A stretch of 64,000 nt of DNA from Thermobaculum terrenum ATCC BAA-798 (GTDB lineage: Bacteria > Chloroflexota > Chloroflexia > Thermobaculales > Thermobaculaceae). Positions 4,379 to 54,601 of the stretch are shown piece after piece (the stretch's first letter is position 1; every line of letters begins with the position of its first letter). The stretch spans positions 1,065,501 through 1,129,500 of the forward strand of contig NC_013525.1 in the NCBI RefSeq assembly GCF_000025005.1, read 5' to 3'. The position numbers and the translations under genes were made by a program. The notes below the pieces were generated by a model, which had not been told where the DNA came from, ran no database searches, and was given only the letters and a program-made list of their open reading frames with translations.

Positions 4379-7261
4379 ATGGCAGCTGAAAGAATATTTG
4401 TCGCCCTGGATCTTGAGATGACAGGGCATGATCCAGAACAGGATGAGATTATTCAGATAGGTGCGGTTAAGTTCACGCAGACCAGGGTTCTTGGGAGATG
4501 GGGAACGCTTGTGAGACCTAAGGTCAAGCTTCCTTTTCGTATAGCAAGGCTCACGGGCATAAATCCTAATGATCTCAATAAAGCTCCGGTCTTTGACGCG
4601 GTAAAGGATAAGCTGAGATCCTTTGTAGGGGATCATCCCATTGTTGGTCATAGCATTGGGAATGACTTATCCTTTCTTGCTAAGCAAGGCTTAGCTCTTG
4701 ATAATCCAAGCTTAGATACCTGGGAGCTAGCCATGCTTTTAATGCCTAGTCTTAACGCTTATTCTTTGCAGGGGGTTGCCTCTGCATTAGGTGTATCCGT
4801 TGACAATCACCATGATGCCTTAGCGGATGCAGAGATCACCAGACAAGTGTTCCTGGGTTTGCTTGCCAGGTTGAGGCGATTGAATCCAAAACTAGTTACT
4901 CAAGTAATCAGGCTTACGGATAATGTTGATTGGCCGATGAAGATGGTCTTTCAGACGCTGTATGAAGAGGTTTGGCAGTCACAGGCAGCTCGTCCTTCTG
5001 GCAACATAGGATCCTTACTGGCATCTAAGGGGATAACTGAAGAAGACATAACAAGTAATTTGTTATCAGAACCACCCAGGCCTTCCCCTCTACAACCCAA
5101 AGAGGTTACCGAATATCTGGATGAGTCATATATAGAATCCATTTTCTCGCCTGGTGGAGAGCTATCCAAAACTTTTCCTGGTTATGAAGTGCGAGACCAG
5201 CAAATAGATATGGCCCTAGAAGTGGTCAGGAGTATTAACAATAGCAAACACCTCGTTGTAGAAGCTGGTACTGGAACAGGAAAGTCCCTAGCCTACCTTA
5301 TCCCAAGTGCCATATTTGCTCTTAAGAATAACCAGCGGGTGGTAATATCTACTGATACTATCAACTTGCAGGATCAGCTTTATAACAAGGATATTCCTGC
5401 CGTTAGGAAGCTACTTGGAGGTAAGGGTAAAGATCTAAGAGTTAGCTTAGTAAAGGGTAGAAATAATTACCTTTGTCTGAACAGGTGGGAAAGGTTTCTA
5501 AGATCGGGAATAAATACACCGGAAGAAGCCAAGTTTGCGGTAAAGGTACTATTATGGCTGCAGACCACGATCACAGGTGATGTATCTGAGCTGCCGTTGA
5601 CCTCGGATGAGAAGCAATTCTGGCAAAGAGTATCTGCTACTGAGGAGACTTGCACGACAAGGGTTTGCCGAAACCGAAAGGGAAGGCAATGTTTCTTGTT
5701 CCGAGCTAGAGTAGAAGCTGAGTCCTCTCACCTGGTAGTAATAAATCACGCATTATTACTCTCTGATCTTGCTTCAAACAACTCCGTACTTCCCAACTAC
5801 GATTACCTGATAATCGACGAAGCTCATAGACTAGAAGATCAGGCTACCAATCATCTTGGCTTTGAGGTAGATAGTAGGGCGTTACATGAGCTGCTCAACA
5901 GGGTGATGGATAACTCTAATCCCGTCCGTCCAGAAGGTATATCCGCCAGATTGCCAGTCCATATGCAGGGCAGTCGTGCTTCCAACGCAAGCGTGGAGCA
6001 AGTAACCAACATAGCCATGAGGCTTGCTCAGAGGACCGAAAGAACCAGAGCCAGGGTGGATGAGTTTTTCGCGAGCCTTGGTAGGCTGCTGCCTGCATCC
6101 ATGGGGATGCAGAACGGCTATGATGAGCATCTGAGGTTGACTGCTGAGGTAAGGGGAGGGGAGCAATGGGAAGGGGTATTGCTAGCCTGGGAGAATCTCA
6201 AACTTACTCTCAGGGAGTTGGTGGATGAGGTACATCATTGTGGGGAGCTTCTGGAGGGCTTGGAGGGATTGCACATAGCAGAGTATGAGGAGTTGCTGGC
6301 GGAGGTGCAGGCCATAGAAGTCTTCCTGCAAGACTATATCCATGAGATGAATTCTATTATCACGGCACCTACAGAGAATGATGTAACATGGATCTCTTAC
6401 TCACATAGGTACGGAACGATTACTTTGCATAAAGCTCCTTTGGATGTAGGAGGTATACTTCAGGAAGAGCTCTATTCTAAGAAGAAGGCGGTTATATTAA
6501 CCTCAGCTACTCTGACTACTGATCGTAACTTTGATTATGTGACCGGGCGTCTGGGGTTATATGAATTCCAGCAACTTATGTTGGGGTCACCATTTAATTA
6601 CCAAGAAACTGCTTTATTGCTAGTACCTACAGATATACCTGAGCCAGGCACAGCTGGATACCAGGATGCTGTGGAGTCCCTGGTGGCTGAGCTTGTGCTG
6701 GCTGCTGAGGGCAGGACAATGGTGCTCTTTACCTCTCACAGCGCAGTGCAGGCTACCCAAAAGGCTATCTATAGGGAGCTTGCAAGGCACGATATCCTCG
6801 TCCTCTCTCAGGGAGAAGGGTCTCGACACAGGTTACTCCAGCAGTTCAAGTCAAATCCTAGGACAGTTCTAATTGGCACTAGGTCCTTTTGGGAAGGCGT
6901 CGATGTAGTTGGTGATGCTCTTAGCCTGTTGATAATAGCCAAGCTACCCTTCGAGGTTCCTAATGAGCCTGTATTTGTGGCTAGAAGTGAGACTTTTGCT
7001 GATGCTTTCAATGACTATGCTATTCCTCAGGCCATACTTCGGTTGAAGCAGGGCTTCGGCAGATTAATCAGGAGCAAGACTGATAGAGGTGTGGTAGTCA
7101 TACTGGATAAGAGGGTTCTTACCAAGAGATACGGAGTAAAATTCCTAACATCTCTACCTAACTGTAAGATGCAGAAAGGTCCAGCTCGATTACTAGCTCC
7201 TGAAGTTAAGAGGTGGTTAGGTCAGAATTCAGAGGAACGATTATCTGTTAGCAGATCTTAG
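4379..7261 (+). CDS. dinG: Bifunctional DnaQ-like 3'-5' exonuclease / DinG-family DNA helicase
   Basis: A 960-residue fusion. Residues 1-165 are a DEDDh exonuclease: DLEMTG (Exo I), VGHSIGNDLSF (Exo II) and HDALADAE (Exo III) keep all the acidic residues and the His. Residues 265-950 are an XPD/DinG superfamily 2 helicase: GTGTGKS Walker A (about 297-303), DEAH (about 479), SATL, and a C-terminal Q-x-F-G-R-L-I-R motif VI. Four cysteines near 365, 424, 429 and 437 match the iron-sulphur cluster domain of 5'-3' DinG helicases. The exonuclease-DinG fusion is known from Firmicutes and relatives. It is divergent from lexA across one LexA box, which fits damage induction. Its 3' end overlaps the convergent kinase gene by 21 bases. 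Confidence 0.93.
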   Translation: MAAERIFVALDLEMTGHDPEQDEIIQIGAVKFTQTRVLGRWGTLVRPKVKLPFRIARLTGINPNDLNKAPVFDAVKDKLRSFVGDHPIVGHSIGNDLSFLAKQGLALDNPSLDTWELAMLLMPSLNAYSLQGVASALGVSVDNHHDALADAEITRQVFLGLLARLRRLNPKLVTQVIRLTDNVDWPMKMVFQTLYEEVWQSQAARPSGNIGSLLASKGITEEDITSNLLSEPPRPSPLQPKEVTEYLDESYIESIFSPGGELSKTFPGYEVRDQQIDMALEVVRSINNSKHLVVEAGTGTGKSLAYLIPSAIFALKNNQRVVISTDTINLQDQLYNKDIPAVRKLLGGKGKDLRVSLVKGRNNYLCLNRWERFLRSGINTPEEAKFAVKVLLWLQTTITGDVSELPLTSDEKQFWQRVSATEETCTTRVCRNRKGRQCFLFRARVEAESSHLVVINHALLLSDLASNNSVLPNYDYLIIDEAHRLEDQATNHLGFEVDSRALHELLNRVMDNSNPVRPEGISARLPVHMQGSRASNASVEQVTNIAMRLAQRTERTRARVDEFFASLGRLLPASMGMQNGYDEHLRLTAEVRGGEQWEGVLLAWENLKLTLRELVDEVHHCGELLEGLEGLHIAEYEELLAEVQAIEVFLQDYIHEMNSIITAPTENDVTWISYSHRYGTITLHKAPLDVGGILQEELYSKKKAVILTSATLTTDRNFDYVTGRLGLYEFQQLMLGSPFNYQETALLLVPTDIPEPGTAGYQDAVESLVAELVLAAEGRTMVLFTSHSAVQATQKAIYRELARHDILVLSQGEGSRHRLLQQFKSNPRTVLIGTRSFWEGVDVVGDALSLLIIAKLPFEVPNEPVFVARSETFADAFNDYAIPQAILRLKQGFGRLIRSKTDRGVVVILDKRVLTKRYGVKFLTSLPNCKMQKGPARLLAPEVKRWLGQNSEERLSVSRS

Positions 7262-8347
7262 TGTTGTATTCTGACTGCTTCCGTTTGACGTCGGGGTGGC
7301 AGTGACGACTATAGGTTTTTCCTCGATAGCTGGAGTTTGGCTAGCTCTATCGTTACTGTTATACAAGAGTACAGCTATAGGAATAGCACTCAATATTACC
7401 CCGATGGTTATTATTCCTACCAGTTTCGTTATACAGCCGCTAGAACCCGAAACCTTGGCTGTGGAGGAATAACTTTTACTGTCTCTTATAGAGGATATTC
7501 CTCGATTGGTGCTAATGTCGTAGCCCGTTGATGTAGGAAGCGATCTGGATTCCCATCTCTGAAGGGCCTGGGCCATTTCTTCGGCAGATGCAAATCTGTC
7601 CTTAGGGTTTTTGGCCATAGCCTTGAGTATGATGTTCTCTAGATCTTGAGAGACGTCAGTATGAAGAAGTGTGGGTCTAACAGGCTCTTCCTTAACATGG
7701 GCTAAAGCTACTGCAATGGGATTTTCGCCTGGAAAAGGCACGAACCCAGTCACGGCCTCGTATAGTACTACGCCAAGCTGGTAGATGTCCGTTCTGGGAG
7801 TTACAGGACCGTTCTGGGCTTGTTCTGGTGAAAGGTACTGAGCTGTACCTAGGGTGACAGTTTCTTCGGTAAGAGTTGCCTCCGTGGTGACTTTTGCTAT
7901 CCCGAAGTCTGTGACTTTTACTATACCGCTAGGAGCTACAATTATATTGTGAGGCTTGATGTCTCTGTGTACCAAGCCATGTTCATGCGCGTACTGCAGG
8001 GCATTGGCAACTTGCCAAGCGATATCTACCGCTCTTCTTGGGGATAGAGCTCCATTCTGGACTATCAGCTCCTTAAGATTCAGCCCCTCAACATATTCCA
8101 TCACTATGTAATGAAGGTTGCCGTCGTTACCAACGTCGTACACGCTTACTATATGTGGATGATTTAGCGCCGCAGCCGCCTCGGCTTCCCTCCTAAATCT
8201 AGCTAGGAATCTGTGGTCATCGCTCAGGGATGGATGTAGTATTTTGACTGCTACTCTCCTCCCCAGAAACCTGTCTTTGGCTAGATATACCTTAGCCATC
8301 CCGCCTTGGCCTAGCGGTTGAAGCAGCTCGTATCTATTGTTCAGCAC
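7241..8347 (-). CDS. Membrane-anchored Ser/Thr protein kinase (Hanks type)
   Basis: A 368-residue PknB-like kinase. The kinase domain spans about residues 5-270: glycine loop GQGGMAKV, VAVK (Lys35), HRDIKPHN (127-134), DFGIAK (147-152) and an APE-equivalent YLSPEQ (171-176). A Ser-rich linker leads to one transmembrane helix (about 308-329) and a short extracellular tail of about 40 residues. No PASTA repeats are present, unlike typical PknB, so the external sensor is minimal. It starts at GTG. No intact PP2C phosphatase is adjacent; the only PP2C-like protein in the window, at 52586, has lost metal-binding residues. The 3' end overlaps the convergent helicase gene. Confidence 0.93.
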   Translation of the reverse strand: MLNNRYELLQPLGQGGMAKVYLAKDRFLGRRVAVKILHPSLSDDHRFLARFRREAEAAAALNHPHIVSVYDVGNDGNLHYIVMEYVEGLNLKELIVQNGALSPRRAVDIAWQVANALQYAHEHGLVHRDIKPHNIIVAPSGIVKVTDFGIAKVTTEATLTEETVTLGTAQYLSPEQAQNGPVTPRTDIYQLGVVLYEAVTGFVPFPGENPIAVALAHVKEEPVRPTLLHTDVSQDLENIILKAMAKNPKDRFASAEEMAQALQRWESRSLPTSTGYDISTNRGISSIRDSKSYSSTAKVSGSSGCITKLVGIITIGVILSAIPIAVLLYNSNDRASQTPAIEEKPIVVTATPTSNGSSQNTTLRSANR

Positions 8348-20230: not shown

Positions 20231-22437
20231 ATGCGGCAGAATTGCGTGAGGTTGCTCTTACCGAGGAAGAGTATCGCACTGCAGTCAAGTTGCTAGGGCG
20301 GGAGCCCAATCGCTTAGAACTTGGGATAATCGGTGCGATGTGGAGCGAGCACTGCGGATACAAGAACAGCCGTCCATTACTTAGGTACTTCCCCACAGAA
20401 GGCGAGAAAGTCGTACAGGGTCCTGGTGAAAATGCTGGAGCCGTAGCTATAGATGATAACTTGGCCGTAGTGTTCAAGGTGGAGTCTCACAACCATCCGA
20501 GCGCAATCGAACCTTACCAGGGTGCGGCTACGGGTGTAGGTGGCATAGTAAGAGATATATTCACCATGGGAGCCAGACCCATAGCTTTGTTGAACTCTCT
20601 GCGCTTTGGACCTCTTAGTGAACCAGAGAACCGAAGATTACTTGCAGGAGTGGTTAAAGGGATCGGAGATTACGGCAATAGCATAGGTATCCCCACAGTT
20701 GGAGGAGAGGTTTGGTTCCATCCTTCTTATAATGGGAACCCTCTAGTTAATGCCATGTGCATTGGTGTGGCAGACATAAATAAGATAGTCCGTGCCCAAG
20801 CTGGTAGCCCAGGAAACCTATTGTTGTTAGTAGGTGCTGATACAGGTAGGGATGGTATCCACGGTGCCACTTTTGCCTCGGTGGATGACCCACATGCTAG
20901 TCACAAAGGGGTAATTCAGGTAGGCAATCCCTTTATGGAGAAGCTTCTCATGGAAGCTTGTCTGGAGTTGCTAGACTCTCCATACGTGGTGGGTATGCAA
21001 GATCTTGGTGCTGCCGGCTTGACGAGCAGTTCTGTAGAGTGTGCTGGTCGTGCTGGTAGTGGTGTGGAGATAGACGTTTCTAAGGTCTCTCGTAGGGAGT
21101 CTGGTATGACCCCTTACGAGGTTATGTTGTCCGAAAGCCAGGAAAGGATGCTTATAGTAGTCCGTCCTGAAGGTCTGGAAGAAGTTAAACAGGTTTTCGA
21201 AAAATGGGATCTTCATTCTGATGTGGTTGGTCTAGTCACGTCTGATGGTATGCTCCGAGTGCGTGATGGAGATGAAATAGTAGGTGAGCTACCTATCAGG
21301 CTACTAACAGAAGATGTTCCTAAGTATGTGAGAGAAGCCACTCCATCTCCTGAGGTCATAAACAAAGCCTCAATCGATGTGGACTCTAAGTTTTCTGGTC
21401 AGGTGAACTTTGATCCCGAATCAGATCTAATACGGTTGCTTTCTTCCCCCAATATAGCCAGCAAGCACTGGATTTGGGAGCAATACGATCATACCATTGG
21501 CACTAGTACTGTGAGGGGCCCTGGATCGGCAGATGCTGCCGTTATGCGTGTTCGGCCTCATGGTCAAGGTGTGGCTATAACAATGGATTGTAACCCCAGG
21601 TACTGTTATCTGGATCCTTACTGTGGGGGTATGGCAGCTGTAATTGAGGCAGCCCGTAACCTTGCTTGTGTCGGGGCAGTACCAATAGGTATGACGAACT
21701 GCTTGAATTTCGGTAATCCTGAGAAGCCAGAAATCTATTGGCAATTGCGAGAGTGTATACTCGGTATGAGTGATGCTTGTAGGCGCTTGCAAATACCCGT
21801 AGTAAGCGGAAACGTTAGCTTATATAACGAGAGCAACGATAAAGCTATATATCCAACCCCAGTAGTAGGTTTAGTGGGGCTTATAGAATCAGCTTCGGGC
21901 TCTGTTTCGGCGGGTGCAAAGAGTGGGGATGCCATTTACCTTCTACATACATCTCAGCAAGTTACTTTAGGTGCTAGCGAATGGCTGGCAGTGGTTGCTA
22001 ATGAGGAGTCAGGTCATCCGCCAGTTTGCGATCTTGATAAGGAAATATCGCTCCACAGGCTACTTGTAGAGTCCATTCAAGATGGAGTTATTAGTGCTGC
22101 ACATGACGTATCAGATGGTGGACTGTTGGTAGCATTGGCAGAGATGGCCATCATAGGTGGTGCAGGTATTGATGCTAGCAATTGGAAGCCTCAGATTAAC
22201 CCCTTGTATCTATTTGGCGAGGGGCATGGCAGGGCTCTTGTCTCGGTTCCTACTAATAAGGAAGAAGAGCTAACCGAGTTGTGCGGTCAATATGGTGTGC
22301 AATTCGAGCGGATTGGCGTAGTAGGTGGTGATGCCTTGATTATTGGTGATGTCATCAAGCTTCCTGTAGGCGAACTCATCGATTTGTACGACCAGGCTAT
22401 TCCAAGCATGCTTGGGTGGGATAGTAAGGGGCATTAA
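20227..22437 (+). CDS. purL: Phosphoribosylformylglycinamidine synthase, large subunit PurL
   Basis: A 736-residue small-type PurL that makes FGAM from FGAR with ATP and ammonia. Motifs: [11 protein letters not shown] near residue 38, [12 protein letters not shown], the ATP-binding [24 protein letters not shown] and the duplicated AIRS-like half ending in SDGGL. As last gene of the pur operon it ends on TTAA, shared with the stop of the convergent response regulator gene. Confidence 0.98.
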
Positions 22438-23165
22438 TTCTGCCTCATGTTACGTAGCCTGTCTGGAGACAGAAATTTGTATCCACTACCCCTAATGGTT
22501 GCTATGTATTTGGGATCATTAGGATCGTCTCCTAGTTTTTTCCTAATCCTCCCAATGTAAACATCTATCTGGTTGCTGGATGTATCAGCAACGTATCCGG
22601 CAGCGTACATAGCTAGGTCATCTCTTGACACAACTCTATTAGGACTGGACATTAACCTTTGTAGTATGCGCATCTCCATTGGAGTCAGGGTAACCTTCTC
22701 CCCGGAGGGCAGCTTAGCTGTCAAGTCTGGTATGTTAAGCTCGATGCCGTTTTCCACTATTAGCATATCCATGGTCGCCGCCAATTGACGGTTGGCTCGC
22801 CTGAGAACAGACTTAACTCTGGCTACCAGCTCTGCAGGCTCGAATGGCTTTACCACGTAATCATCAGCCCCAGATTCAAGCCCAGTAAGCTTATCCTGCA
22901 TTTCAGCACGAGCGGTGAGCATGATTACAGGCATCTCGGGATATTGCTTCTTTATGTGTTTGAGCAGGGTGAATCCATCCATCCTGGGTAGTTGAACGTC
23001 CAGAAGTATAAGGTCAGGCGTCCTTTGTTCTAGTGCTCTCAATGCCTGACTCGGATCGGCAGCAATTTCAACCTCGTGACCTTCATTTTCCAACAGGAAA
23101 TCTATCAGTTTTCCTGTTAGAGGATCATCATCGACAGCTAATATTAGTGCCTTGCGTGGTTGCAT
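22434..23165 (-). CDS. OmpR/PhoB-family response regulator (orphan)
   Basis: A 243-residue regulator. The start is set at ATG 23165, behind a GAGGGA site; an ATG 39 bases further upstream lacks one. The receiver domain (about 5-120) has the acidic DDD cluster, phosphorylatable Asp (LILLDVQ) and Lys (VVKPFEP). The C-terminal winged helix (about 150-240) has [11 protein letters not shown], the recognition helix region [15 protein letters not shown] and GSGYKF. No histidine kinase is adjacent; kinases at 35618 and 39266 are candidates. It lies just downstream of the Tad pilus operon on the same strand, separated by a hairpin, so a link to pilus control is only positional. Confidence 0.95.
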
Positions 23166-23290
23166 TTTGTATCCCTCGCACTCTTGTACAGGCTTTATAG
23201 GCATCCACGCATACAGTATAAGACATTATTAGTTATATTTATCATCTGTTACTATTAGTTGTTAGTCTTAGTGAGGAATAAAGGCAAGAA

Positions 23291-23321
23291 GGGCAGGAGG
23301 TTCGAACATGACCTCTTGCCC
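23291..23321 (-). terminator. Probable terminator of the Tad pilus operon
   Basis: An 11-bp stem (GGGCAGGAGGT with ACCTCTTGCCC, one G-U pair) with a nine-base loop, 25 bases past the stop of the vWA-TadC gene. The minus-strand sequence after it is only moderately T-rich (TTCTTGCCTTTATT). Confidence 0.6.
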
Positions 23322-23345
23322 ATTAGATGTCATGTGGAGTTATTT

Positions 23346-25277
23346 CTACTTACCGATGTTACCCAGTGCATTCAAGATGGTTGGGATAGCAGGTCCAAGA
23401 AGTACTACGAATACAGCCGGGAATATGAATAGCACCATAGGTATGATTATCTTGATCACTGCCTTGTGTCCCAACTCCTCAGCCCTTTGCCTTCTTCGAA
23501 GTCGCATCTGTTCTGATTGTATAGACAAGGTTCTACCTATACTAGCTCCTATCTCATCTGCCTGGACGATGGAGCTTACGAGTAACTTCATCTCGTCAAG
23601 CTGTACTCTTTCGGCCATGGATCTAAGGGCATCCCTACGGCTCTTGCCAAGCTTCATCTCGCTGAGAACCAATGCAAATTCCCTAGCTATATCGTTGTCC
23701 CATTTCTGAACGATCTCCAACATAGCAGCATCGAAGCCCAGTCCAGCCTCCACACTTATGGTGAGAAGGTCGAGGGCGTCCGGCATCTGAAGTAAAATCC
23801 TTCGCCTGCGTTGTGTGATTTCCCGAGAGAGCCAGAATAGGGGCAAATATACTCCCGCAGCTAGTAGTACCAGCCCCAATATTAGGTTGTGAGTTAGTAA
23901 CAGTCCTAGTACTAAGCCAGTTAGTCCCAGCAAAACCTGTATTGTAATGAAATGTGCTAGGCGAATACCATGGGGATAGGCGGCAGCTATCAGTTTGTCT
24001 ACAATGAACCTTTGCCACTTACCAGGAATCCATCTAACTACCGTTACCGAGACTAAAGGCACCAGTGGTTTGATCAGGTCTACTATGGAAGTCTTCTTTT
24101 TCGTGACTGAGACTTCTGGGGGTGTATCTTGATGTTCTTCATGCAGCAATTTCTTAAGTCTTCTCTGTATAGGACTTGGCCTTTGAGCTAAAACCAACCC
24201 ATAGACTAGAAATAGGACGCCACTTGCAGCAATTATCCCTAGTGTGGGTAAGCTCACTGGTGGAGGTGGTACCTCACCTGCTGGCTTGCCTGGGTTTATC
24301 ACTGGCAGATTGCCTACCCTGATTGGTTGTGTGCTGCTAGCTTCACTTGTCCTGCTAGCATAGCTGTAAGAGAAGCTATATATCGGAGAAGAAGGTGAGG
24401 ATTTAAGATAGATATCTACTTTTACCTTCTCGCCTTCCTTTGATATGGTTGAGGATGTGTATGATAGCCTATATTCCTGATGAAGTTTCTGAGATATATC
24501 GGCAAATACTCTTCTGAGTTGGGCGTTAGTTGGAGCTGAGAAGTATTCCCCCCCAGTCTCATTTGCTATTTTCTGTAATCCTTGTGTATCTACCTTTTTG
24601 CCGAATCCGACCGTGAACACAGATGCCCCTACTTCCTGGGCCTTGGCTACGGCTTCCTCTAAAGTAGTGTTTCTTGAAGTATTGAAGCCATCGGTCATCA
24701 ACACGATTGCCTTAGTGTTCTGCCCCTTAGCTACCTCCTGAGCTGCCAGTGATAGTCCTTGATATAGGGCAGTGCCCACACTTCGGCTGAGTTTCTGAAT
24801 AGATTCTTGTACTCTTGCATGATCCTGGGCCAAAGGCTCGATGACCCTTGCCGTCTTATCAAAGGTTATCAAGCCTACCTTGTCCTCTGGCGATAGTCCA
24901 TTGATTAAGCCGTAAGCTGCATCTTGGGCAGCTGTGAATGCGTCGTCATTCATACTTGCACTTGTGTCTAGAGCCAGTACTACATCTATAGGATCAGGGT
25001 TCTGGTAGAAGGGATAGACAGCTATATCGGATTGTTCTTTCCCGTTCTCTTTTACGATAAAGTCATCTGCACTTAGGTCGGTTACTGGTAGACCCTTGGA
25101 GTTGTTCGCAGAGAGCGTCATGACGATTTTGGGTTGTGATGTAGTTGAGACCTCTCTGATGCTTACTCTAACTGTATTTCCAGAATTTGCAGCTAGAGCC
25201 TCAGTGAAGTATGAGTAAAAAGTAAGGATCACTAAGATCAGGCTAATTGTTGCAGGTATACGTGCTTTCATAATCAT
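23346..25277 (-). CDS. von Willebrand factor A domain fused to a TadC-like (T2SSF) pilus platform protein
   Basis: A 643-residue, apparently natural fusion in one uninterrupted frame. Residues 1-29 look like a signal peptide. A beta-rich segment (30-95) precedes a vWA domain (about 97-275) with an intact MIDAS: D104-T-S-A-S plus a MTDGFN-type strand. After a Pro-rich linker comes a membrane helix (about 348-366), a basic cytoplasmic region, and a TadC-type T2SS-F domain (about 440-640) with helices and the motif M-P-D-A-L-D-L-L-T-I-S-V-E-A-G-L-G-F-D-A. TadC normally is an inner-membrane platform partner of TadB. The vWA part would lie outside the membrane, so it may bind the pilus or a surface ligand. 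The start shares one base with the stop of tadB. Confidence 0.88.
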   Translation of the reverse strand: MIMKARIPATISLILVILTFYSYFTEALAANSGNTVRVSIREVSTTSQPKIVMTLSANNSKGLPVTDLSADDFIVKENGKEQSDIAVYPFYQNPDPIDVVLALDTSASMNDDAFTAAQDAAYGLINGLSPEDKVGLITFDKTARVIEPLAQDHARVQESIQKLSRSVGTALYQGLSLAAQEVAKGQNTKAIVLMTDGFNTSRNTTLEEAVAKAQEVGASVFTVGFGKKVDTQGLQKIANETGGEYFSAPTNAQLRRVFADISQKLHQEYRLSYTSSTISKEGEKVKVDIYLKSSPSSPIYSFSYSYASRTSEASSTQPIRVGNLPVINPGKPAGEVPPPPVSLPTLGIIAASGVLFLVYGLVLAQRPSPIQRRLKKLLHEEHQDTPPEVSVTKKKTSIVDLIKPLVPLVSVTVVRWIPGKWQRFIVDKLIAAAYPHGIRLAHFITIQVLLGLTGLVLGLLLTHNLILGLVLLAAGVYLPLFWLSREITQRRRRILLQMPDALDLLTISVEAGLGFDAAMLEIVQKWDNDIAREFALVLSEMKLGKSRRDALRSMAERVQLDEMKLLVSSIVQADEIGASIGRTLSIQSEQMRLRRRQRAEELGHKAVIKIIIPMVLFIFPAVFVVLLGPAIPTILNALGNIGK

Positions 25278-26287
25278 CAGACCTTTATAGCTATTATCCG
25301 CCTCATCATGTAATAGCCCATCATAATGCCAGCTAGGGCAACTGCCAGCATTATTCTTCCCATGTTCGTAGTAAACAATGGCATTATGTAGCTCCTGTTC
25401 AGAAGGAATATGACTGCGGTCAACAGAAATGGTATTGCTGTGACTATATAGGCAGAAATCCTACCTTGCGCGGTTAGGACTTTTATCTCTCCCTTGATCC
25501 TCAGCCTTTCCCTGATCGTAGTTGAGATCGACTTCAGAACGTGAGCCAAACTACCGCCTACTCTATATTGAATATTTATTGCTGTTATCATCATGTCCAA
25601 ATCTTCACTGGGGCACCTTTCCAGCATTCTTCTGAGAGCTTCCTCCTGGCTAAGTCCCAACTCCTGATCACGCACTACCTTTATGAGCTCATCAGATATA
25701 GGGTTAGACATCTCTCTGGCCGCCAGCATCATTGCTTGTGCAAGGCTAGAGCCCGCCTCTAGAGCTCCAGCCAAGACATCTATAGCGCCTGGAAGTTGCC
25801 TCTCCAGGGCGCTTAATCTTCTCTTTCGGCGCAGAGCCAGGTAAGCTCTGGGCAGTTGGTAGCCAGCTATCAACCCGAAAATCGCTGCTATGGTCCTAAA
25901 CAGGGGATAGTTACCTGGAATAAGCAGCATTACTAGGAAGGAGCATAGCAGCGCACCAGCCAGACGGACCAATATGAACTTATCGGCTGCTATGCCCAGC
26001 CCCGCTGTTAGTAACTCTCTTCGGAATTTGGGGGTGATTATGAGATCCTTTAGTTTCTCTCTAATTCTCCAGCTGAGTAGCGCTTTTTGCGGTAAGATCT
26101 CGGGTGAAGTGTCTTGAGACGAACTAGTAGCTTCAAGATGCCTGCCTATTAGCTGATGTAATCTCTCCTGCCATCTCCTATGCTTTATGTATAGAGTTAA
26201 TCCTAGGAAAATCAAGAAAATTCCTAGGGCTACAGTTACGCCGGCTAAGTTTTCTGGCTGAGTGAAGATAATATCCAGGTTGGCCAC
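25277..26287 (-). CDS. tadB: Tad pilus platform protein TadB (T2SSF family)
   Basis: The start is set at GTG 26287, seven bases after AAGGGAG and 13 bases past the tadA stop; the frame continues upstream into tadA. The 336-residue product has an N-terminal membrane helix (about 15-32), a cytoplasmic region, a helix pair near 105-150, the T2SS-F motif G-A-I-D-V-L-A-G-A-L-E-A-G-S-S-L-A-Q-A, and two C-terminal helices. TadB and TadC together form the inner-membrane platform moved by TadA. Operon position is as expected. Confidence 0.93.
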   Translation of the reverse strand: MANLDIIFTQPENLAGVTVALGIFLIFLGLTLYIKHRRWQERLHQLIGRHLEATSSSQDTSPEILPQKALLSWRIREKLKDLIITPKFRRELLTAGLGIAADKFILVRLAGALLCSFLVMLLIPGNYPLFRTIAAIFGLIAGYQLPRAYLALRRKRRLSALERQLPGAIDVLAGALEAGSSLAQAMMLAAREMSNPISDELIKVVRDQELGLSQEEALRRMLERCPSEDLDMMITAINIQYRVGGSLAHVLKSISTTIRERLRIKGEIKVLTAQGRISAYIVTAIPFLLTAVIFLLNRSYIMPLFTTNMGRIMLAVALAGIMMGYYMMRRIIAIKV

Positions 26288-26300
26288 TTCTTGCTCCCTT

Positions 26301-27719
26301 TTACGATGCCTGGAATATGGATGGTGGTACGTGAATATTGTGAGCTGCGAGTTTCTCAAGGCACTTTGGCCTGGTGCCCTTTGCGACTAGCTCTCCAACA
26401 ACTTGCCTACCAACCATACCATACTGTCTAAACTCGAATATATCCTGCAGGACTATGGTATCCCCCTCCATGCCTTGCACCTCGCTGATCTTGACTACCT
26501 TGCGGGAACCATCTTGTAGTCTTTCCTGGTGCACTATGATATCGATGGCCGAAGCTATTTGCTCACGGATGGCTCTAAGCGGCAGATCCATGCCTGACAT
26601 CAACACCATGGTTTCCAATCGCGCAAGTGTATCCCTAGGAGAGTTGGAGTGTAGCGTCGTTAGAGAACCATCATGCCCTGTGTTCATCGCTTGGAGCATG
26701 TCCAAGGCCTCACCGCTTCTTACCTCACCAACTATGATTCGGTCGGGACGCATACGAAGTGAGTTGACCACTAGGTCTCTGATCGTAATCTCTCCCTTGC
26801 CCTCAGCATTTGGAGGTCTCTTCTCCAATCTGACAACATGTCTCTGTCTTAGCTGTAGCTCTGCTGCGTCCTCTATGGTTATTATTCTTTCGTTATCGGG
26901 AATAAATGACGAAAGCACGTTCAATAAGGTTGTCTTTCCTGAGCCTGTGCCACCAGAGACTACCATGTTTAGCCTGCCTTTAACACAGGCTTTGAGAAAC
27001 TCAACCACGGGCGGTGTAAGGGTGCCAAATTGAAGCAGATCGTTTACGGTAAGGGGATCAGCTGAGAACTTTCTAATGGTTAATACTGGTCCCACTAGCG
27101 ATAGGGGAGGTATGATTGCGTTCACGCGGGACCCGTCTGGTAGTCTTGCATCTACCATAGGGGAGTTTTCATCACATCTTCTACCGAGAGGGGCTATTAT
27201 ACGCTCTATGATCCTACGTACATGCTCTTCGTTATCGAATTTGACATTGGTTTCTTCAAGTCGGCCATTCCTCTCGACCCAGACATGATCTGGGCCGTTT
27301 ACCATGATCTCTGTAATAGTCTCGTCCTGTAGTAAAGGCTCTAAAGGCCCGAAGGCGAGTATCTCGGCCGATATAGCTTCAAAGAGTCTTACCCTATCAG
27401 GCCTTGGGAGTTGAATATTCTCCTCAGCTAGTATCTCGTTGAACATGCCTTCTAGAGTGCGCCGAATTGTGGTTATGTTTTCGGCATCGATATTGCCTCC
27501 GAGATCCACCTCCTCAAGTAATCTTCTTTGCACGAGAGACTTGATCTGATGCCAATTGACTCTCTGGGACGCACTCTCTGTAATAGGCGGTGTTACGATG
27601 GTCTGAATAGGAGAGCTGTCGCTTGTGCTCGTGGTCTTTCCGTCGGGGGGTGTGTACCCGTTGTTATTGGGTTCTTGATTGTTATTTCTGTTGAGTCGAT
27701 CTGATATCGAAAAGGGCAT
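26301..27719 (-). CDS. tadA: Tad/Flp pilus assembly ATPase TadA (CpaF)
   Basis: A 472-residue secretion ATPase of the PilT/VirB11 superfamily that drives pilus extension and possibly retraction. An N-terminal variable, Asn/Ser/Pro-rich linker (1-60) precedes the CpaF N-domain and the RecA fold: SGGTGSGKTTL Walker A (about 255-265), an Asp-box/Walker B IITIEDAAELQL, the LEKRPPN arginine region, and TLHSNS. GGAGG lies ahead of the ATG. Confidence 0.96.
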   Translation of the reverse strand: MPFSISDRLNRNNNQEPNNNGYTPPDGKTTSTSDSSPIQTIVTPPITESASQRVNWHQIKSLVQRRLLEEVDLGGNIDAENITTIRRTLEGMFNEILAEENIQLPRPDRVRLFEAISAEILAFGPLEPLLQDETITEIMVNGPDHVWVERNGRLEETNVKFDNEEHVRRIIERIIAPLGRRCDENSPMVDARLPDGSRVNAIIPPLSLVGPVLTIRKFSADPLTVNDLLQFGTLTPPVVEFLKACVKGRLNMVVSGGTGSGKTTLLNVLSSFIPDNERIITIEDAAELQLRQRHVVRLEKRPPNAEGKGEITIRDLVVNSLRMRPDRIIVGEVRSGEALDMLQAMNTGHDGSLTTLHSNSPRDTLARLETMVLMSGMDLPLRAIREQIASAIDIIVHQERLQDGSRKVVKISEVQGMEGDTIVLQDIFEFRQYGMVGRQVVGELVAKGTRPKCLEKLAAHNIHVPPSIFQAS

Positions 27720-27739
27720 ACTCTAGCCTCCTATACGAT

Positions 27740-29002
27740 CTAGGTGTTTTGCGCAACTGCTGGATTGGGTTTTTCCTGCTTTCTGCCAATGCGTATCCAG
27801 CTAATTATCTTGGCTGTTCTCTTACGTCTGGACTCGAGTTCGCCCTCACTAAGCTTTGTAGACAGCGTAATAAAGGCTTTAGCCATGGAAGACTTTCCCT
27901 TCTCCATGGTCACCGGCACACCTGTATTAGTTGCTGATATCATCTTCTTGCCACCCGATGGGATAGTAGCCCCTATCTCGTACTTTATATGCTTCTTGAT
28001 ATCATCCAGGTTGACTGCACCTTTACTTCCAGCCCTGTTGATAAGTAGGAATATCTTCTCCTGCGGATATCCTAGACGTGAGGTTAGCTGAAGGAAGCGG
28101 GCAGTATTACGCAGTGCCGCTACTTCAGGAGTACTGACCACGACTATTTGATCGCAGGTGTCAAGCGCTGCCATCGAGACTGCATCTAAGATGTGTGGAG
28201 TATCTATGAGTACATAATCTGCTGCCTTGCGTAGGACACCGATTATCCTAAGAAACTGTTCTTCTGTTATCAGCTCAGATCTCTCGATCTGAGCTGGAGC
28301 TAGAAGTACTTTCACTCCACTGCTATGTGTTGCCATAATCTCTGATAGAAGGTCCTCGTCTAGTTCCTTCATGTGAGGTGTTAGATCAGCTATGTTCGTT
28401 GGGTGATCCAGATCGAGTAAGACACCAACATCCGCTGACTGAAGGGCTGCATCCACAATTACGACTCTCTTCTTGGTGAGCTGTGCAAGCGAGATAGCTG
28501 TATTCACTACCATTGTGGTGGTGCCTGAACCACCTTTTGCGCTATGAAAGGTTAGAACTCTAGCTAACCTGGGCTGGTCTCCCGTGGCTTGAGCTACGAT
28601 CTGGGTTCTTCTGCGTCTCTCTCTCGCTACTAGCCTTCTGATAGAACCTACTAACTCATTACGGTCATCGAGGCTGTAGAGGCATAATTGCGCTCCAGCT
28701 AATATGCACTCTCTGGCCAGATCCGGTTCTTCGCTACTGAACAATACTATGATTGGGATCTCTGGGACTGAGGAATCGAGGGACTCAACTATAGATGACA
28801 CTCCTGGAGTATCACCTGCCAGCAGGACTATATCAGGTTTGTGTTTCTTGGCGGCCCTTACTCCTTCGCCAAAACTGGTGTGTGAGTTAATAATCTCTAT
28901 ACCTGGTTCAGAGGCCAACATTTGCTTTATAGCCTCTGCATAAATTACAGAGTCATCCAAAACTAAGCATTTGAGTGACATCAAAGAAGTTTGCTCTGGC
29001 AT
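27740..29002 (-). CDS. tadZ: CpaE/TadZ-like protein: degenerate receiver plus ParA-like ATPase
   Basis: A 420-residue protein. Residues 8-125 have a receiver fold (C-L-V-L-D-D-S) but the phosphoacceptor site reads VLLAGDTPG, with Ala where Asp should be. Residues about 150-390 form a MinD/ParA-type ATPase with a deviant Walker A (S-A-K-G-G-S-G-T-T-T), V-I-V-D-A-A and VLIDTP. CpaE/TadZ places the Tad machine at a cell site, often a pole. The atypical receiver is normal for the family, since many TadZ proteins lack the Asp. Confidence 0.92.
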   Translation of the reverse strand: MPEQTSLMSLKCLVLDDSVIYAEAIKQMLASEPGIEIINSHTSFGEGVRAAKKHKPDIVLLAGDTPGVSSIVESLDSSVPEIPIIVLFSSEEPDLARECILAGAQLCLYSLDDRNELVGSIRRLVARERRRRTQIVAQATGDQPRLARVLTFHSAKGGSGTTTMVVNTAISLAQLTKKRVVIVDAALQSADVGVLLDLDHPTNIADLTPHMKELDEDLLSEIMATHSSGVKVLLAPAQIERSELITEEQFLRIIGVLRKAADYVLIDTPHILDAVSMAALDTCDQIVVVSTPEVAALRNTARFLQLTSRLGYPQEKIFLLINRAGSKGAVNLDDIKKHIKYEIGATIPSGGKKMISATNTGVPVTMEKGKSSMAKAFITLSTKLSEGELESRRKRTAKIISWIRIGRKQEKPNPAVAQNT

Positions 29003-29028
29003 CTCTTTATACCTCTAATCCTCGCTTT

Positions 29029-29805
29029 TTACTTCACAGGCTCTGGCTTGCGGAACTTATACTTCACGATCACGGAATCCTCGGTCTCACCATCCGTCTC
29101 ATGCTGCTTATGGTCATCGGAAGATCCGCGTAGTGCTAGATCTATCACTGCTTTATCGCTATCCTTGGCAAGCTTGAGTGTCACTGCCTGTTGGGGATCA
29201 ACTAACAGCACTACGGCCGGAGATTTGGCATTACCTCCGTCGCTACCTGCACCAGTACCAAGCACATCTAGTACTTCAAGGTCTTGCAGCGTGGTTTGAG
29301 TTGTAGCTCTTTCCTCATCGGATGTCTGTCCATCTGGCCCTATAGATGTCATCTTGACGAAGAAGGTGACCAATACATCTACCCTGTCCCCGGGCTGAAT
29401 CTGCCCGTTTCCGCTGAGCAGATCGGATGCAGGTAGTGCGAACGCTACTTTACCCTTAGGTATGCTTAGGGCAAGTTTGCCTACCTGCTTAGTATCTGAT
29501 AATAGAGGGCGAGTTATTATCTGCCCCTTGACGATATTCGTAGCACTATAGCGGTTCACAGCATCATTTATGCTACTTACAGCCTCGCTCGGAGCAAAGT
29601 CGGCTGGAAATGGCTTTGTTTCCAGCATCGATGCTGTTATAGGGCTTCCCTGAGCTATATCCTGAGCTGCTACTACTACTTGTACCTGTTTTATTACAGG
29701 CTTGGCTTCTCTAGCTGCCCTAGTGACGTTGATTACTGTAAGTCCGGCAAAGGCTGCCAGAGCTAGCCCAACTATCATCAGTAAAATTCCAATTCTCTTA
29801 CGCAT
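29029..29805 (-). CDS. cpaB: Flp pilus assembly protein CpaB/RcpC (SAF domain)
   Basis: A 258-residue protein with one N-terminal membrane anchor (about 4-27) and a SAF domain (VVVAAQDIAQGSPITASML, 45-65), followed by a CpaB C-domain (PGDRVDVLVTF). In Gram-negative Tad systems CpaB helps the outer-membrane secretin; no secretin gene is seen here, so its role in this organism is probably in the envelope outside the membrane. GGAGG precedes the ATG. The operon order is TadG, CpaB, CpaE, TadA. Confidence 0.9.
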   Translation of the reverse strand: MRKRIGILLMIVGLALAAFAGLTVINVTRAAREAKPVIKQVQVVVAAQDIAQGSPITASMLETKPFPADFAPSEAVSSINDAVNRYSATNIVKGQIITRPLLSDTKQVGKLALSIPKGKVAFALPASDLLSGNGQIQPGDRVDVLVTFFVKMTSIGPDGQTSDEERATTQTTLQDLEVLDVLGTGAGSDGGNAKSPAVVLLVDPQQAVTLKLAKDSDKAVIDLALRGSSDDHKQHETDGETEDSVIVKYKFRKPEPVK

Positions 29806-29900
29806 AGGTACCTCCTAATTACAGGATAGCCCTGCAGCTTAAATAATCCCTGACTAGCTAGTTGCTCCTTCCTAACTTTTCTTTCAGATTAGGCTAGCTA

Positions 29901-31373
29901 TTAGTCTATGAGTCTGACGGTATTCTGAAATGGTGACGGGTTGCCAGACTGTGGAGGCGCATTCACCGATATGGAAGGGAAGTAGCCCTTTATCTCCGAG
30001 CTGCTAGTAAAGCTCTGGACCGGATAGCTTGATGCATTGGGCTGGTAGGGATCGTAGAACCTGTATATCCTCCAATCCCTGAGACTTACTCTATTTACAT
30101 CTCCTCCCGACCCGGTCAGAGTGACAAATTTACCCCTTTGAGTTGAGCTCTTCGAGCTTTGGAATGTCTCTGCCTTATCCCAGAGATATACTGCTACTAG
30201 TGCGTAGTTGCCTCCACACGAGTCCTTACCTACTACATGGTTGTGCACATATTCCTTCATGGCATCTGATATGTTGTTCCCAAGATTGCCGGTAATAACC
30301 TCTACCTTGTCTCCATAGTTGGAATAGGTGGAGGTGCGGTTTATCTGCCAGCTTGAGAGTTTTCCACTGTAGCTTGGAATAGTAGGCTCGTTGTCAGCGT
30401 CTGAAGGTGGGGCTATATAGCTTCCAGCGGTTAGCTTGATACTCAACCCGTTTCTGAACCACTGCACTAATGAATCATGCACGTCGCTACCGTTCAGGTT
30501 AGCTGGAGGTCCCTCGGTATCTCCATACGGATCGTCGTTATCGCTGAGGAACTCAGTAATCATCTGCACGTGATTTGGGATAGTACCGGCGACTTTATTT
30601 GAGGGGTCATAATTCAACTCCTGTACATATGCCGAGTATTTGCCAACATAGAACAGCCCTTTGAAGTCTCCCACGGTTGATCCCGAGTCGTTTGGTGACC
30701 AAAACACTACAGGTGGGGGGCAAGCACCGTTTGTGGGAAACTCAGTTAGAGCATTTCCAGTGTACTTGCGAACCATGGGCCATACCCCGGTTGGTGGGTA
30801 CTTGGGCTTAGAAACTGGGAATATCTGTGCTGCCGCTGTAGCTCCGACCGACATCTTATTTCTTCCTAGGACAGTGGCAAGGAATGTAGAGTAGGTGCGC
30901 TTGATGTTCACCCTTACTATAGCTGTACCGCTAGGTACCTGGCCGTTTGATGTCGGGCTTCGGGCTAGGAGGCTCTTATTGACATTAAGGTACTCAATGC
31001 AAAATGGTCCGCTTGAACAACCTCCTGCCGCTCCATAAGATGATCCTGGAGGAGTTATTCCGCTGTTGGCATCTATGTATCTCCTTACCGTATCCCTTAT
31101 ATTTTGATCGTTTACCAGAAATGTCCAACTGCCGTCACTGGTACCTTGCAGGTTGTCGGCAAGCTGGTTAGTAGCTGCGAGCGCTGCTGCATCCACAGCG
31201 TTTTGCATGAACCTTCTCTGTGAATAAGCCATGCCCAGGTCTATTCCCATAGCGATGAAACCTATTAGTACTACCGATAGTAGCGCGAACAGTACGAGGG
31301 ATTGCCCGCTTCTTGGGACAAATAACTTTCCAGTTCTAGCTCTTATACTCATTGGTCTTCTCACACTTTTCAT
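29901..31373 (-). CDS. tadG: TadG-like pilus assembly protein (Tad domain)
   Basis: A 490-residue protein with a basic N-terminus then R-S-G-Q-S-L-V-L-F-A-L and a transmembrane stretch (about 24-46), followed by QRRFMQNAVDAAALAATNQLA. These are the hallmarks of the Tad/TadG-like N-terminal domain. The remaining 400 residues are Ser/Thr/Tyr/Asn-rich with several cysteines (GGCSSGPFCIEYL, GACPPP, DSCGG), consistent with an extracellular, possibly disulphide-bonded, domain. The vWA domain often found in TadG is not obvious here; a vWA domain is instead fused to the TadC homologue. Its ATG overlaps the upstream TadE stop by four bases. Confidence 0.88.
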   Translation of the reverse strand: MKSVRRPMSIRARTGKLFVPRSGQSLVLFALLSVVLIGFIAMGIDLGMAYSQRRFMQNAVDAAALAATNQLADNLQGTSDGSWTFLVNDQNIRDTVRRYIDANSGITPPGSSYGAAGGCSSGPFCIEYLNVNKSLLARSPTSNGQVPSGTAIVRVNIKRTYSTFLATVLGRNKMSVGATAAAQIFPVSKPKYPPTGVWPMVRKYTGNALTEFPTNGACPPPVVFWSPNDSGSTVGDFKGLFYVGKYSAYVQELNYDPSNKVAGTIPNHVQMITEFLSDNDDPYGDTEGPPANLNGSDVHDSLVQWFRNGLSIKLTAGSYIAPPSDADNEPTIPSYSGKLSSWQINRTSTYSNYGDKVEVITGNLGNNISDAMKEYVHNHVVGKDSCGGNYALVAVYLWDKAETFQSSKSSTQRGKFVTLTGSGGDVNRVSLRDWRIYRFYDPYQPNASSYPVQSFTSSSEIKGYFPSISVNAPPQSGNPSPFQNTVRLID

Positions 31374-31777
31374 TGTTCCAGTGACATCTCCGAACTTGCC
31401 CTAAGGTTTATTTGGCCCCCTGGGATCAGGTTGGATACCAAAGGGGTTATAGGCCTGAAGTTGTAGCTTATGCTCACCTTGATGCTGCCGTTGGGGGATG
31501 TACCGGAGCGTGTGATCGTTACATTTGAGTTCGAGAGTGGCACCCCGGTAGATTTTTGTAGCACCGTGTTGATGATCTCGGCATCTGAATGTGATTTGAC
31601 TATCCCGTAGCGTGCACCTTCCCTAGCTGCGTTGGCTATAGCGTTGTAGTACCAAATGGCTCTGCCGAAATCCACGGTAAGCATTATGAGCAGAAGCATA
31701 ATAGGGATAGTCAGAGCGAATTCGACTATCGCTTGTCCTGGCAGGTGTTTATTGTTCCTTATAATGCTTCTGCTCAT
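31370..31777 (-). CDS. TadE-like pseudopilin (first copy upstream of tadG)
   Basis: A 135-residue TadE-type protein: short basic head, P-G-Q-A-I-V-E-F-A-L at the putative processing site with the family Glu, one membrane helix (about 20-42), then NAIANAAREGARYG and a beta-strand C-domain. TadE proteins are minor pseudopilins. It follows its neighbour after ten bases and overlaps tadG, so it is translationally coupled. A GGCAGGAG site precedes the ATG. Confidence 0.92.
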   Translation of the reverse strand: MSRSIIRNNKHLPGQAIVEFALTIPIMLLLIMLTVDFGRAIWYYNAIANAAREGARYGIVKSHSDAEIINTVLQKSTGVPLSNSNVTITRSGTSPNGSIKVSISYNFRPITPLVSNLIPGGQINLRASSEMSLEQ

Positions 31778-31787
31778 ATGCTCCTGC

Positions 31788-32225
31788 CTAAGGGTTTAGT
31801 GTGATCTGTGCTGCTGGCATCCTGCTGGTGGCTCTCAGGTTTATGTTCTGACCTAATAGCTGTTGCACCAAGGGCGTTATTAGCTTGAAGTTATACTGCA
31901 CTGTAACGCTCACATATCTGTCACCCGTGCTGGGATCTACGGTAGGTCCTGAGGGTGTGACCGTTATATATGGTCCTAAGGCGCCAGCCTCTCTTACCGC
32001 TATCGATATAGCCTGCCCACTTTGATCCGTGTGGAGCGAATAGTACCTAGCGCCCTCGCGAGCGGCATTGGTAATGGTTTCCTGAAAGTAGAAAGCCCTA
32101 CCTAGATCCAGCAAACCCAGGGTGATGAGCAGCAACACTGGTAAAATCAGAGCAAACTCTACTATAGACTGCCCCTCTAACGCCTTACATTTCCTTGGTG
32201 CCTGTCTATACTCGTACATACTCAA
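31788..32225 (-). CDS. TadE-like pseudopilin (second copy)
   Basis: A 145-residue protein with the same layout as its neighbour: E-G-Q-S-I-V-E-F-A-L, one membrane helix and ITNAAREGARYYSLH. The two copies are clearly paralogous in the N-terminal half and around the N-F-x-I-T-P-L-V motif in the C-domain. The start is TTG 32225 or ATG 32219; neither has a strong ribosome site. Confidence 0.9.
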   Translation of the reverse strand: MSMYEYRQAPRKCKALEGQSIVEFALILPVLLLITLGLLDLGRAFYFQETITNAAREGARYYSLHTDQSGQAISIAVREAGALGPYITVTPSGPTVDPSTGDRYVSVTVQYNFKLITPLVQQLLGQNINLRATSRMPAAQITLNP

Positions 32226-52585: not shown

Positions 52586-54601
52586 ATGAGTAAGATACAA
52601 GTGAATACAGCTCAGATAGGGATTATAAGTGGAATAAGGCAAGATCAAACAGATTTTGCCTTGGAGGGTGGCAGGGATAGACCGAGTAGAATCTTGCGTT
52701 CGAGGGGTAAGCTTTGGATATTGACTCAGCCTGCTTGCCCTAGTGTTGGTGCAACTACGGCCGCCAAACTTGTAATGGAGACGGTCGAAGAGTCCTACTA
52801 CACAAGTAACTCACCTACTATTACTGGTGCGCTCGAGGAAGCGATAAACCAGGCTAATAGGCTCATGTATGAGTACAACTCAGGAGCACCTATACATAAG
52901 CAAGCTTACCTCGGAATAAGCTGTATTGTGCTACATGACCAAGAGGTCTACATTGCGCAAGTTCAGCCAGCTGCTATTCTCGTTATACATGGTGGCGAAG
53001 TAAGCTTCTTTCCCCCTGATGGTCCTCTTCCGGAAGAAGAACTTACGCCTTTGGGACTTGAGCAGCGTGCTGAGGTTGAACTTCACAGAAGTGGTTTCAT
53101 GCAAGGCGATACTGTGGTGGCACTTTCTACAGATCTGGCCTCCGCTTTGTATGAATCTGCTAAGGAAGAATTTTTATATGACGACTATGAAGTTATTATT
53201 GACAAATTGTTTGCGCTTTCTATCGAGAGATCTATATTGGATGGTCATGCCTTAGTAATCGAATTCCCAGATTCACCCAACAAAAGGCCCATATCATCTA
53301 ATATTCCATCTTGGCAAAGTATATCTACTTGGGTGCAGAACAAACTAAAGATAGATGGTCATTTAGTTCACAAGGGTTCTAAAGATAAACATACTCCGAA
53401 TACGGATGACCAGGGTTGGCCTATACCATTGGTGCGTATCAAGAGTTCTAATGGCTTTTGGACTAGTGCTGGAAGGATTCTAAAACACAGATTTCAGAGT
53501 CGAGCCCTAATTGCAAGAACAGCTTCTATCATTGGGATAGTACTAATATTTGCGCTAGCTATGGCGCTTGGTGCCCGAGCATTTGAGGGATTCCAGAGGG
53601 TTAACAAGGTTGAGAACCTATTGTCTAGGGCTCAGAAGGAAATTTCTGCCGCCCATAATACGTCGCTACAGGAAGCTGTACGACACCTTCAAAACGCTCA
53701 AAGCTTGGTAGCAGATGCTGAGAAGATAGATCCTTCCAGTACAAAGATAGCTGTTGTTCGCGCTGCTATACAGTCAAACTGGGAAAAGGTTCGTAAGATA
53801 GAGCATCTCAAGAATCTGAAATTATTGGGAACTGTGCCGGGACTAAGAACCTCTGCAGATGCCAAGATTATATTGCTTGACAATAAAGTTGTGGTCCTGA
53901 ATAAAGATAGTGGTCGTGTCTATATCAAAAATATAACCGGAGGTGGGCCAGGGTTTATCTCTCCTTCGAGATCAGTAAGATTTATTGGGATCTCTTGGCG
54001 AGAAGGGGGGCTTCTTATTCTAGATAGAGCAGGTAGACTGTTTGATTATGATTTCACTTCAGGAAGATGGACTCAAACGCGTTTGGGAGGAAATTGGGAT
54101 TGGGATAAGGTTACCGGCTTTGATACCTATGGGACTAGGGCGTATGTGTCCCTTAAGGGATTCAACGGGATTCTAGAATATGATATCCGTAATCCTGGTG
54201 CCGCCTCTATAATCAGGGGCAATAGGAAGGGTATTACATTCAGCTCATCCAGTCTTGGCGCCGATGGCAATGTGTGGGCTTTGAGTCCGAGGGATGGTAG
54301 CCTTATACAGATAACTGACGGTAAGATCAACAAGAAGCTCTGGATAGAAGCCAGCCCCCCTGTGACAGCACCTTTTGGTATCGTCGCCTTGGATACCAAT
54401 CAGCATTTGTACTTTCTAGATGAGGGGCGAGATAGAATCTTGGAAATGTCTGCTGATGGCCAGCTGGTTGCTCAATTGATTCCGGATCTACCTGGTAGAG
54501 TAACTGGTAATATATCTGCAGTCTTTGTTGATGAAGCTAATGCAAAGTTGATTCTGCTTGCTGGCAATAAGCTATACTATGGCAAGCTGCCATCTAGTTA
54601 G
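52586..54601 (+). CDS. PP2C-like (probably inactive) domain, membrane helix and beta-propeller protein
   Basis: The start is set at ATG 52586 after GAGGAGG; the frame continues upstream. The 671-residue product has an N-terminal domain (about 1-235) with PP2C/SpoIIE-like strand order (GATTAAKLVMETVEESY; QAYLGISCIVLHDQEVYIAQVQP; GDTVVALSTDLASAL), but the Asp residues that bind metal in PP2C (D-G, G-D-S-R, D-G, D-N) are not evident. One membrane helix (about 311-333) follows, then a helical/coiled-coil stretch (335-400) and a beta-propeller-like region (about 430-671). The layout resembles a regulatory sensor: external propeller, internal pseudophosphatase. Function unknown; a link to the Ser/Thr kinase at 7241 is possible. 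Confidence 0.75.
   Translation: MSKIQVNTAQIGIISGIRQDQTDFALEGGRDRPSRILRSRGKLWILTQPACPSVGATTAAKLVMETVEESYYTSNSPTITGALEEAINQANRLMYEYNSGAPIHKQAYLGISCIVLHDQEVYIAQVQPAAILVIHGGEVSFFPPDGPLPEEELTPLGLEQRAEVELHRSGFMQGDTVVALSTDLASALYESAKEEFLYDDYEVIIDKLFALSIERSILDGHALVIEFPDSPNKRPISSNIPSWQSISTWVQNKLKIDGHLVHKGSKDKHTPNTDDQGWPIPLVRIKSSNGFWTSAGRILKHRFQSRALIARTASIIGIVLIFALAMALGARAFEGFQRVNKVENLLSRAQKEISAAHNTSLQEAVRHLQNAQSLVADAEKIDPSSTKIAVVRAAIQSNWEKVRKIEHLKNLKLLGTVPGLRTSADAKIILLDNKVVVLNKDSGRVYIKNITGGGPGFISPSRSVRFIGISWREGGLLILDRAGRLFDYDFTSGRWTQTRLGGNWDWDKVTGFDTYGTRAYVSLKGFNGILEYDIRNPGAASIIRGNRKGITFSSSSLGADGNVWALSPRDGSLIQITDGKINKKLWIEASPPVTAPFGIVALDTNQHLYFLDEGRDRILEMSADGQLVAQLIPDLPGRVTGNISAVFVDEANAKLILLAGNKLYYGKLPSS

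Follow-up and report, generated by a model that had tools for sequence, protein, structure and literature searches.

A receptor-like membrane protein of Thermobaculum terrenum joining a predicted PP2C-fold pseudophosphatase domain to an NHL-type propeller

The DNA analyzed here, called the window in the following, is a stretch of 64,000 nucleotides from chromosome 1 of T. terrenum, which measures 2,026,947 bp (PMC3035366) within a genome of two contigs and 3,101,581 bases in total. An open reading frame of 671 aa begins with an ATG at 52586 and ends with a stop codon at 54599-54601, which confirms the position 52586-54601 given in an earlier note on this DNA. Starting instead from a GTG (52547) would lengthen the protein by 13 aa; the starts of the relatives match the ATG position. 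The gene is flanked upstream, on the opposite strand, by a glycosyltransferase and a folC-like gene and downstream by a HAD hydrolase. Elsewhere in the window, at 22434-32225, lies a Tad/Flp pilus cluster with TadE, TadG-like, CpaB, an ATPase and two T2SSF proteins, one of which is fused to a VWA domain. The gene and its features are as follows (AF2, AlphaFold2; TM, transmembrane).

52586..54601, plus strand: whole gene of the pseudo-PP2C / TM / stalk / propeller protein, 671 aa, stop codon included in the span (ORF list; same start Met in homologues)
52586..53269, plus strand: pseudophosphatase domain of PP2C fold, aa 1-228, predicted to be cytoplasmic (PDB profile, AF2, Foldseek, hhalign)
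52652..52654, plus strand: D23, equivalent of PPM1A D38, kept (alignment to the canonical Stp of T. terrenum)
52727..52729, plus strand: Q48, replacing the Asp of DGMGG (D60), followed by a Pro that replaces G61 (alignment)
52967..52969, plus strand: P128, replacing the Asp of GDSR (D146) (alignment; Pro in 59/66)
53129..53131, plus strand: T182, replacing the Asp of SDGL (D239) (alignment)
53237..53239, plus strand: L218, replacing the Asp of the DN motif (D282), with D219 adjoining (alignment, uncertain by one residue)
53270..53512, plus strand: cytoplasmic linker with low model confidence and poor conservation, aa 229-309 (pLDDT <50 over aa 232-309; 12-14% identity)
53519..53581, plus strand: single TM helix, aa ~312-332 (hydropathy 2.37; charge +5 before and +1 after the helix)
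53582..53794, plus strand: helical stalk, aa 333-403 (AF2)
53798..54595, plus strand: NHL-type beta-propeller of six blades, aa 405-670, predicted to be extracytoplasmic (AF2 strands, Foldseek, PDB profile)

The window protein has no match in Pfam, and among 32 members of the family Pfam PP2C matched none apart from two weak SpoIIE matches, so that naming the family by Pfam was dropped. The NCBIfam model NF033484 (Stp1/IreP PP2C) matches the window protein with 16.7 bits, below the curated cut-off of 230, and gives a weak match in all 32 members with a best value of 1e-10. Comparing a profile of the N-terminal domain against the PDB, for which no structure model is needed, returned Stp1 (2e-11), tPphA (1e-10) and PstP (2e-4). 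The AlphaFold2 model of this domain (aa 1-234) reached a pLDDT of 89.1 and a pTM of 0.88, and its Foldseek matches comprise PppA, Stp1, tPphA and PstP with TM scores of 0.65-0.76 (normalized by target length), with SpoIIE and Anopheles TAB1 also among them. The N-terminal domain is therefore predicted to have a PP2C fold, and the PP2C-like domain proposed in the earlier note is corroborated by each of these methods except Pfam.

For the active site, the canonical Stp from T. terrenum itself served as alignment reference, and the diagnostic Asp set was D38, D60, D146, D239 and D282 in PPM1A numbering. Four of these five are replaced in the window protein (Q48, P128, T182 and L218), and the catalytic motifs R..NED, DGMGG, GDSR, SDGL and DN are not preserved, the D38 equivalent being the sole Asp left. 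The previous claim that the expected metal-binding Asp residues are absent thus holds for four positions and fails for the fifth, where D23 is present. The 66 members without an intact site retain none (31 members), one (29) or two (6) of the diagnostic Asp residues, whereas the eight catalytic receptors and the four canonical PP2Cs that were compared have all five. The substitutions follow a pattern, with Pro at the D146 position in 59/66 members and with no variation at Q125 and P128 within the Chloroflexia set. The segment between D146 and D239, which carries the flap, counts 54 residues versus 74 in canonical PP2Cs and catalytic receptors, and the window protein consequently lacks a flap subdomain of canonical length. 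Judged from the alignment, the metal site would not be usable and the catalytic site is lost.

It could be argued that the protein is a divergent but active phosphatase whose metal site is altered or holds a single metal. In favor of this, the D60 position most often carries Glu (44/66 members; Glu or Gln in 52/66), the window protein retains D23, and binding of one metal persists in PHLPP2 and TAB1 (PMC12002173). However, the known PPM phosphatases depend on two or more metals (PMC12002173), and in the window protein itself D60 is a Gln followed by a Pro and D146, D239 and D282 have become Pro, Thr and Leu, which makes residual activity very improbable.

Whole-protein AlphaFold2 modeling on 32 sequences gave a mean pLDDT of 80.8, with aa 232-309 unordered. 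A long helix (303-357) spans the membrane in the model and is followed by helices 361-381 and 386-403 and by a propeller with six blades by strand count. Foldseek matched this C-terminal part to the NHL domain of Thin and to Pizza6 with TM scores by target of 0.67-0.78, and the full profile returned Pizza6 (2e-5) and the PknD sensor (0.009) from the PDB. The PknD-type trait of an extracellular six-bladed NHL propeller behind one TM helix is accordingly found at the level of model and prediction. As the charge is +5 before the TM segment and +1 after it, the phosphatase-like part should be inside, and an N-in topology with a cytoplasmic PP2C-like domain is predicted. The membrane helix (aa 312-330 in this prediction) and the outer propeller-like domain with its six blades are thereby borne out as well. 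Homologues L055, L058, L059, L066, L067, L071, L072, L074 and L077, mostly of family f7, carry two hydrophobic segments ~60-75 residues apart, in most of them with an Arg-rich loop in between, so that one of the two end domains, PP2C-like or propeller, may be located across the membrane there. The N-in topology may hence not be uniform over the family.

Relatives were found in 54 of 61 genomes, mostly of the same class and with T. terrenum counted, a recurrence far beyond chance. A single-sequence scan of the genome contigs yielded no match; an alignment-based scan of them yielded 31 named loci, including members from Herpetosiphon, Chloroflexus, Oscillochloris and Roseiflexaceae. The phylum-wide search matched 153 of 201 genomes, a count that includes catalytic PP2Cs. 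Of 40 loci fetched from this search, eight, in eight genomes (L126, L129, L131, L133, L139, L140, L142 and L143), encode proteins of this layout whose site is intact, and these catalytic receptors probably belong to Ktedonobacteria. Comparison of dead and catalytic receptors by hhalign aligned both the N domain (E 8e-28) and the C-terminal part (E 4e-10), with negative reversed controls, so that the PP2C-TM-stalk-propeller layout is collinear across the Chloroflexota receptors. Treating the two sets of propellers as specific orthologues was dropped, since an unrelated NHL protein scored E 1.6e-6 versus 1.4e-7. At one locus (L120, genome G221), a natural split or a frameshift divides the protein between two ORFs, one with the PP2C-like domain (339 aa) and one with the TM-propeller part (657 aa).

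In a tree rooted on four canonical PP2C sequences, the 66 dead domains form one clade (SH-aLRT 100) next to the catalytic receptors. The canonical PP2Cs are split from dead and catalytic receptors with a support of 99, which becomes 96 when the longest branches are removed, and the placement of the pseudo clade inside versus beside the catalytic receptors has a support of 31. Because same-layout relatives with an intact site exist and the dead domains form one clade, the simplest reading suggests that a receptor phosphatase lost its catalytic activity once. What defines a PPM pseudophosphatase, namely a retained fold, metal ligands lost across orthologues and a catalytic ancestor, is found here, the ancestral state depending on the rooting by the four canonical PP2Cs.

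The N domain is usually under strong purifying selection. In six of the seven measurable pairs, from two clades, its dN/dS was 0.013-0.064; the pair L057/L060 from a third clade was weaker (w 0.22), and the pair L101/L104 was saturated. Since all 66 members keep only zero to two Asp residues, form one clade, share fixed replacements and show purifying selection, the loss of the catalytic site is not a case of local decay. A functionless, decaying relic, for which the lost site alone might speak, was therefore rejected as hardly credible: the selection data contradict it (dN/dS well below 1), as do phylum-wide retention, fixed replacement residues and long intact ORFs.

Around the receptor gene, no linked partner gene common to all lineages was found. 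The neighbors are lineage-specific and mostly housekeeping, among them a TPR protein, small secreted proteins and, in Chloroflexales, an FHA-GAF-cyclase protein. At L055, L058, L059, L066, L067, L071, L072, L074, L075 and L077, the gene of the TPR protein (~700 aa) immediately precedes the receptor gene with the same orientation, and this protein would be a candidate partner in that lineage. Small secreted proteins (~190 aa) follow directly or closely downstream at L046, L049, L051, L052, L057, L060 and L064 and at L056, L062, L063 and L068; the two lineages concerned are Chloroflexales and another family, and one such protein is MecA_N/NTF2-like. In family f12, all three genomes (G056, G046 and G054) keep a TM-propeller protein of 438-480 aa without the PP2C-like domain (L070, L073 and L075), and no PP2C-like remnant was found in the fetched flanks of these loci. 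Some lineages can thus do without the cytoplasmic module.

The f12 proteins, together with the small secreted proteins that adjoin the gene in some lineages, might point to a mainly extracytoplasmic scaffold or adhesin, whose propeller would organize surface or lipoprotein partners and whose cytoplasmic domain would be an anchor or stability element. This is quite improbable, however, as the neighbors vary by lineage and the cytoplasmic domain is conserved better than the propeller (identity of 50 versus 37% within the own family and 26 versus 21% within the class), with strong purifying selection in most pairs.

The earlier note had further supposed that the inner domain binds a phosphoprotein and had taken a Ser/Thr kinase without an intact phosphatase nearby as a clue. 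The kinase of the window (7241-8347, minus strand) is unlinked, lying 44 kb from the receptor gene, and a canonical Stp with 255.6 bits, above the cut-off, is encoded on the same chromosome at 1,819,887-1,820,630. T. terrenum possesses four Hanks kinases, and this Stp adjoins two of them, so that nothing suggests that the receptor replaces a missing phosphatase; the clue is thereby removed. Ten Chloroflexota genomes with a completeness of 91-97% encode a receptor with both the PP2C-like and the propeller part. In these ten, neither a Pkinase domain (apart from one chance hit, E 0.21) nor an Stp above the cut-off was detected, the weak fragments matched by the Stp model being mostly the receptor itself. 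None of the five Asp residues is left in the two of them that were checked (G123 and G137). As the receptor occurs in ten genomes without detectable kinase or Stp, a Ser/Thr phosphoprotein partner would not be obligatory for the family.

The pseudophosphatase domain might nevertheless have a Hanks kinase or a Ser/Thr phosphoprotein as its binding partner, whose phosphorylation it would protect or sense under propeller control. Such a role is consistent with the kinases and the Stp of T. terrenum, with the PPM pseudophosphatase precedents TAB1 and PHLPP2 (PMC12002173), and with the Arg33 equivalent, which is kept in the window protein as R18 and in 28 of the 66 members. On the other hand, most members do not conserve this Arg, the segment that carries the flap is shorter, no linkage of the receptor to kinase genes was seen at the loci examined, and the ten genomes lack both detectable enzymes. 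We consider this role unlikely on balance; a phosphoprotein partner would be possible in T. terrenum, while for the family as a whole the mechanism appears weakened.

With the bacterial PP2C/PPM enzymes Stp1, tPphA, PstP and PppA, the window protein has in common the fold, the order of elements and a detectable sequence profile, whereas it lacks their metal-site Asp residues and the DGMGG, GDSR, SDGL and DN motifs and its flap-bearing segment is ~20 residues shorter. The eight catalytic Chloroflexota receptors likewise run from PP2C through TM and stalk to a propeller-like C-terminus; in contrast, they keep five of five Asp, and their propeller is not clearly closer than NHL propellers generally. 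PstP of Mycobacterium tuberculosis is built from an N-terminal cytoplasmic PP2C domain, a TM segment and an extracellular domain, and thus has the same topology as the window protein. PstP is an active enzyme, while the window protein has no catalytic site, and to our knowledge no propeller is known in the extracellular part of PstP. PknD of the same species (kinase-TM-NHL propeller) carries a six-bladed NHL propeller sensor after the TM segment, as found here, and this sensor is a symmetric six-bladed propeller (PMC3601408). Its cytoplasmic part, however, is an active kinase, in contrast to the window protein, which has no Hanks kinase domain and instead a dead phosphatase of PP2C fold. The eukaryotic PPM pseudophosphatases TAB1 and PHLPP2 likewise retain the PPM fold with lost metal ligands, and PHLPP lost its activity from an active ancestor (PMC12002173), but neither is a PP2C-TM-propeller receptor. 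PTPRU is a receptor pseudophosphatase with inactive phosphatase domains (PMC7320164) and in this resembles the window protein, yet it has the unrelated tyrosine-phosphatase fold. The window protein is thus predicted to place a TAB1/PHLPP2-like loss of activity within a PknD/PstP-like receptor build.

Our preferred reading, with a rough probability of 0.6 that covers anatomy and mechanism jointly, is that the protein is a bitopic membrane receptor whose ancestor was a receptor-type PP2C phosphatase, and that binding of a ligand by its propeller leads to non-catalytic docking. The anatomy (PP2C fold, TM, stalk and propeller) is near certain as far as models and alignments can tell, and the receptor-like role and build suggested before, with the pseudo-PP2C inside, a membrane helix and an outer propeller, are supported by this layout. 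The propeller would bind an extracytoplasmic ligand such as a surface protein or a cell-wall fragment, and the stalk might relay this binding as an altered orientation or oligomer state. The pseudophosphatase domain would then dock a cytosolic protein via its remodeled pocket and helices without dephosphorylating it; in T. terrenum this partner may be a kinase-pathway protein, though the family would not depend on one. This docking mechanism is a reasoned guess from the anatomy and from precedents, namely PknD, pseudophosphatases and the coiled-coil linkers that serve as a route for sensor control of bacterial PPM phosphatases (PMC12143880). More tentatively, and at somewhat less than even odds, the receptors might form a phylum-wide family in which catalysis was lost once, early in Chloroflexota, the output works without Ser/Thr phosphorylation, and a new AQVxPxQ-like pocket signature replaced ANVGDSR.

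Pseudophosphatases have been studied mainly in eukaryotes, and the open-access papers searched contained no description of a PP2C pseudophosphatase from bacteria, subscription papers and preprints lying outside this scope. With catalytic and dead forms of seemingly one receptor layout in one phylum, the change of an enzyme into a binding module becomes directly testable, and the ten genomes without detectable kinases can be used to test signaling by a phosphatase fold without Ser/Thr phosphorylation. Apart from the receptor, T. terrenum encodes a second PP2C_2-type protein (G000:C1:413902-414579; L021, L032), and proteins similar to it at L022 and L023 adjoin VWA and kinase-like genes.
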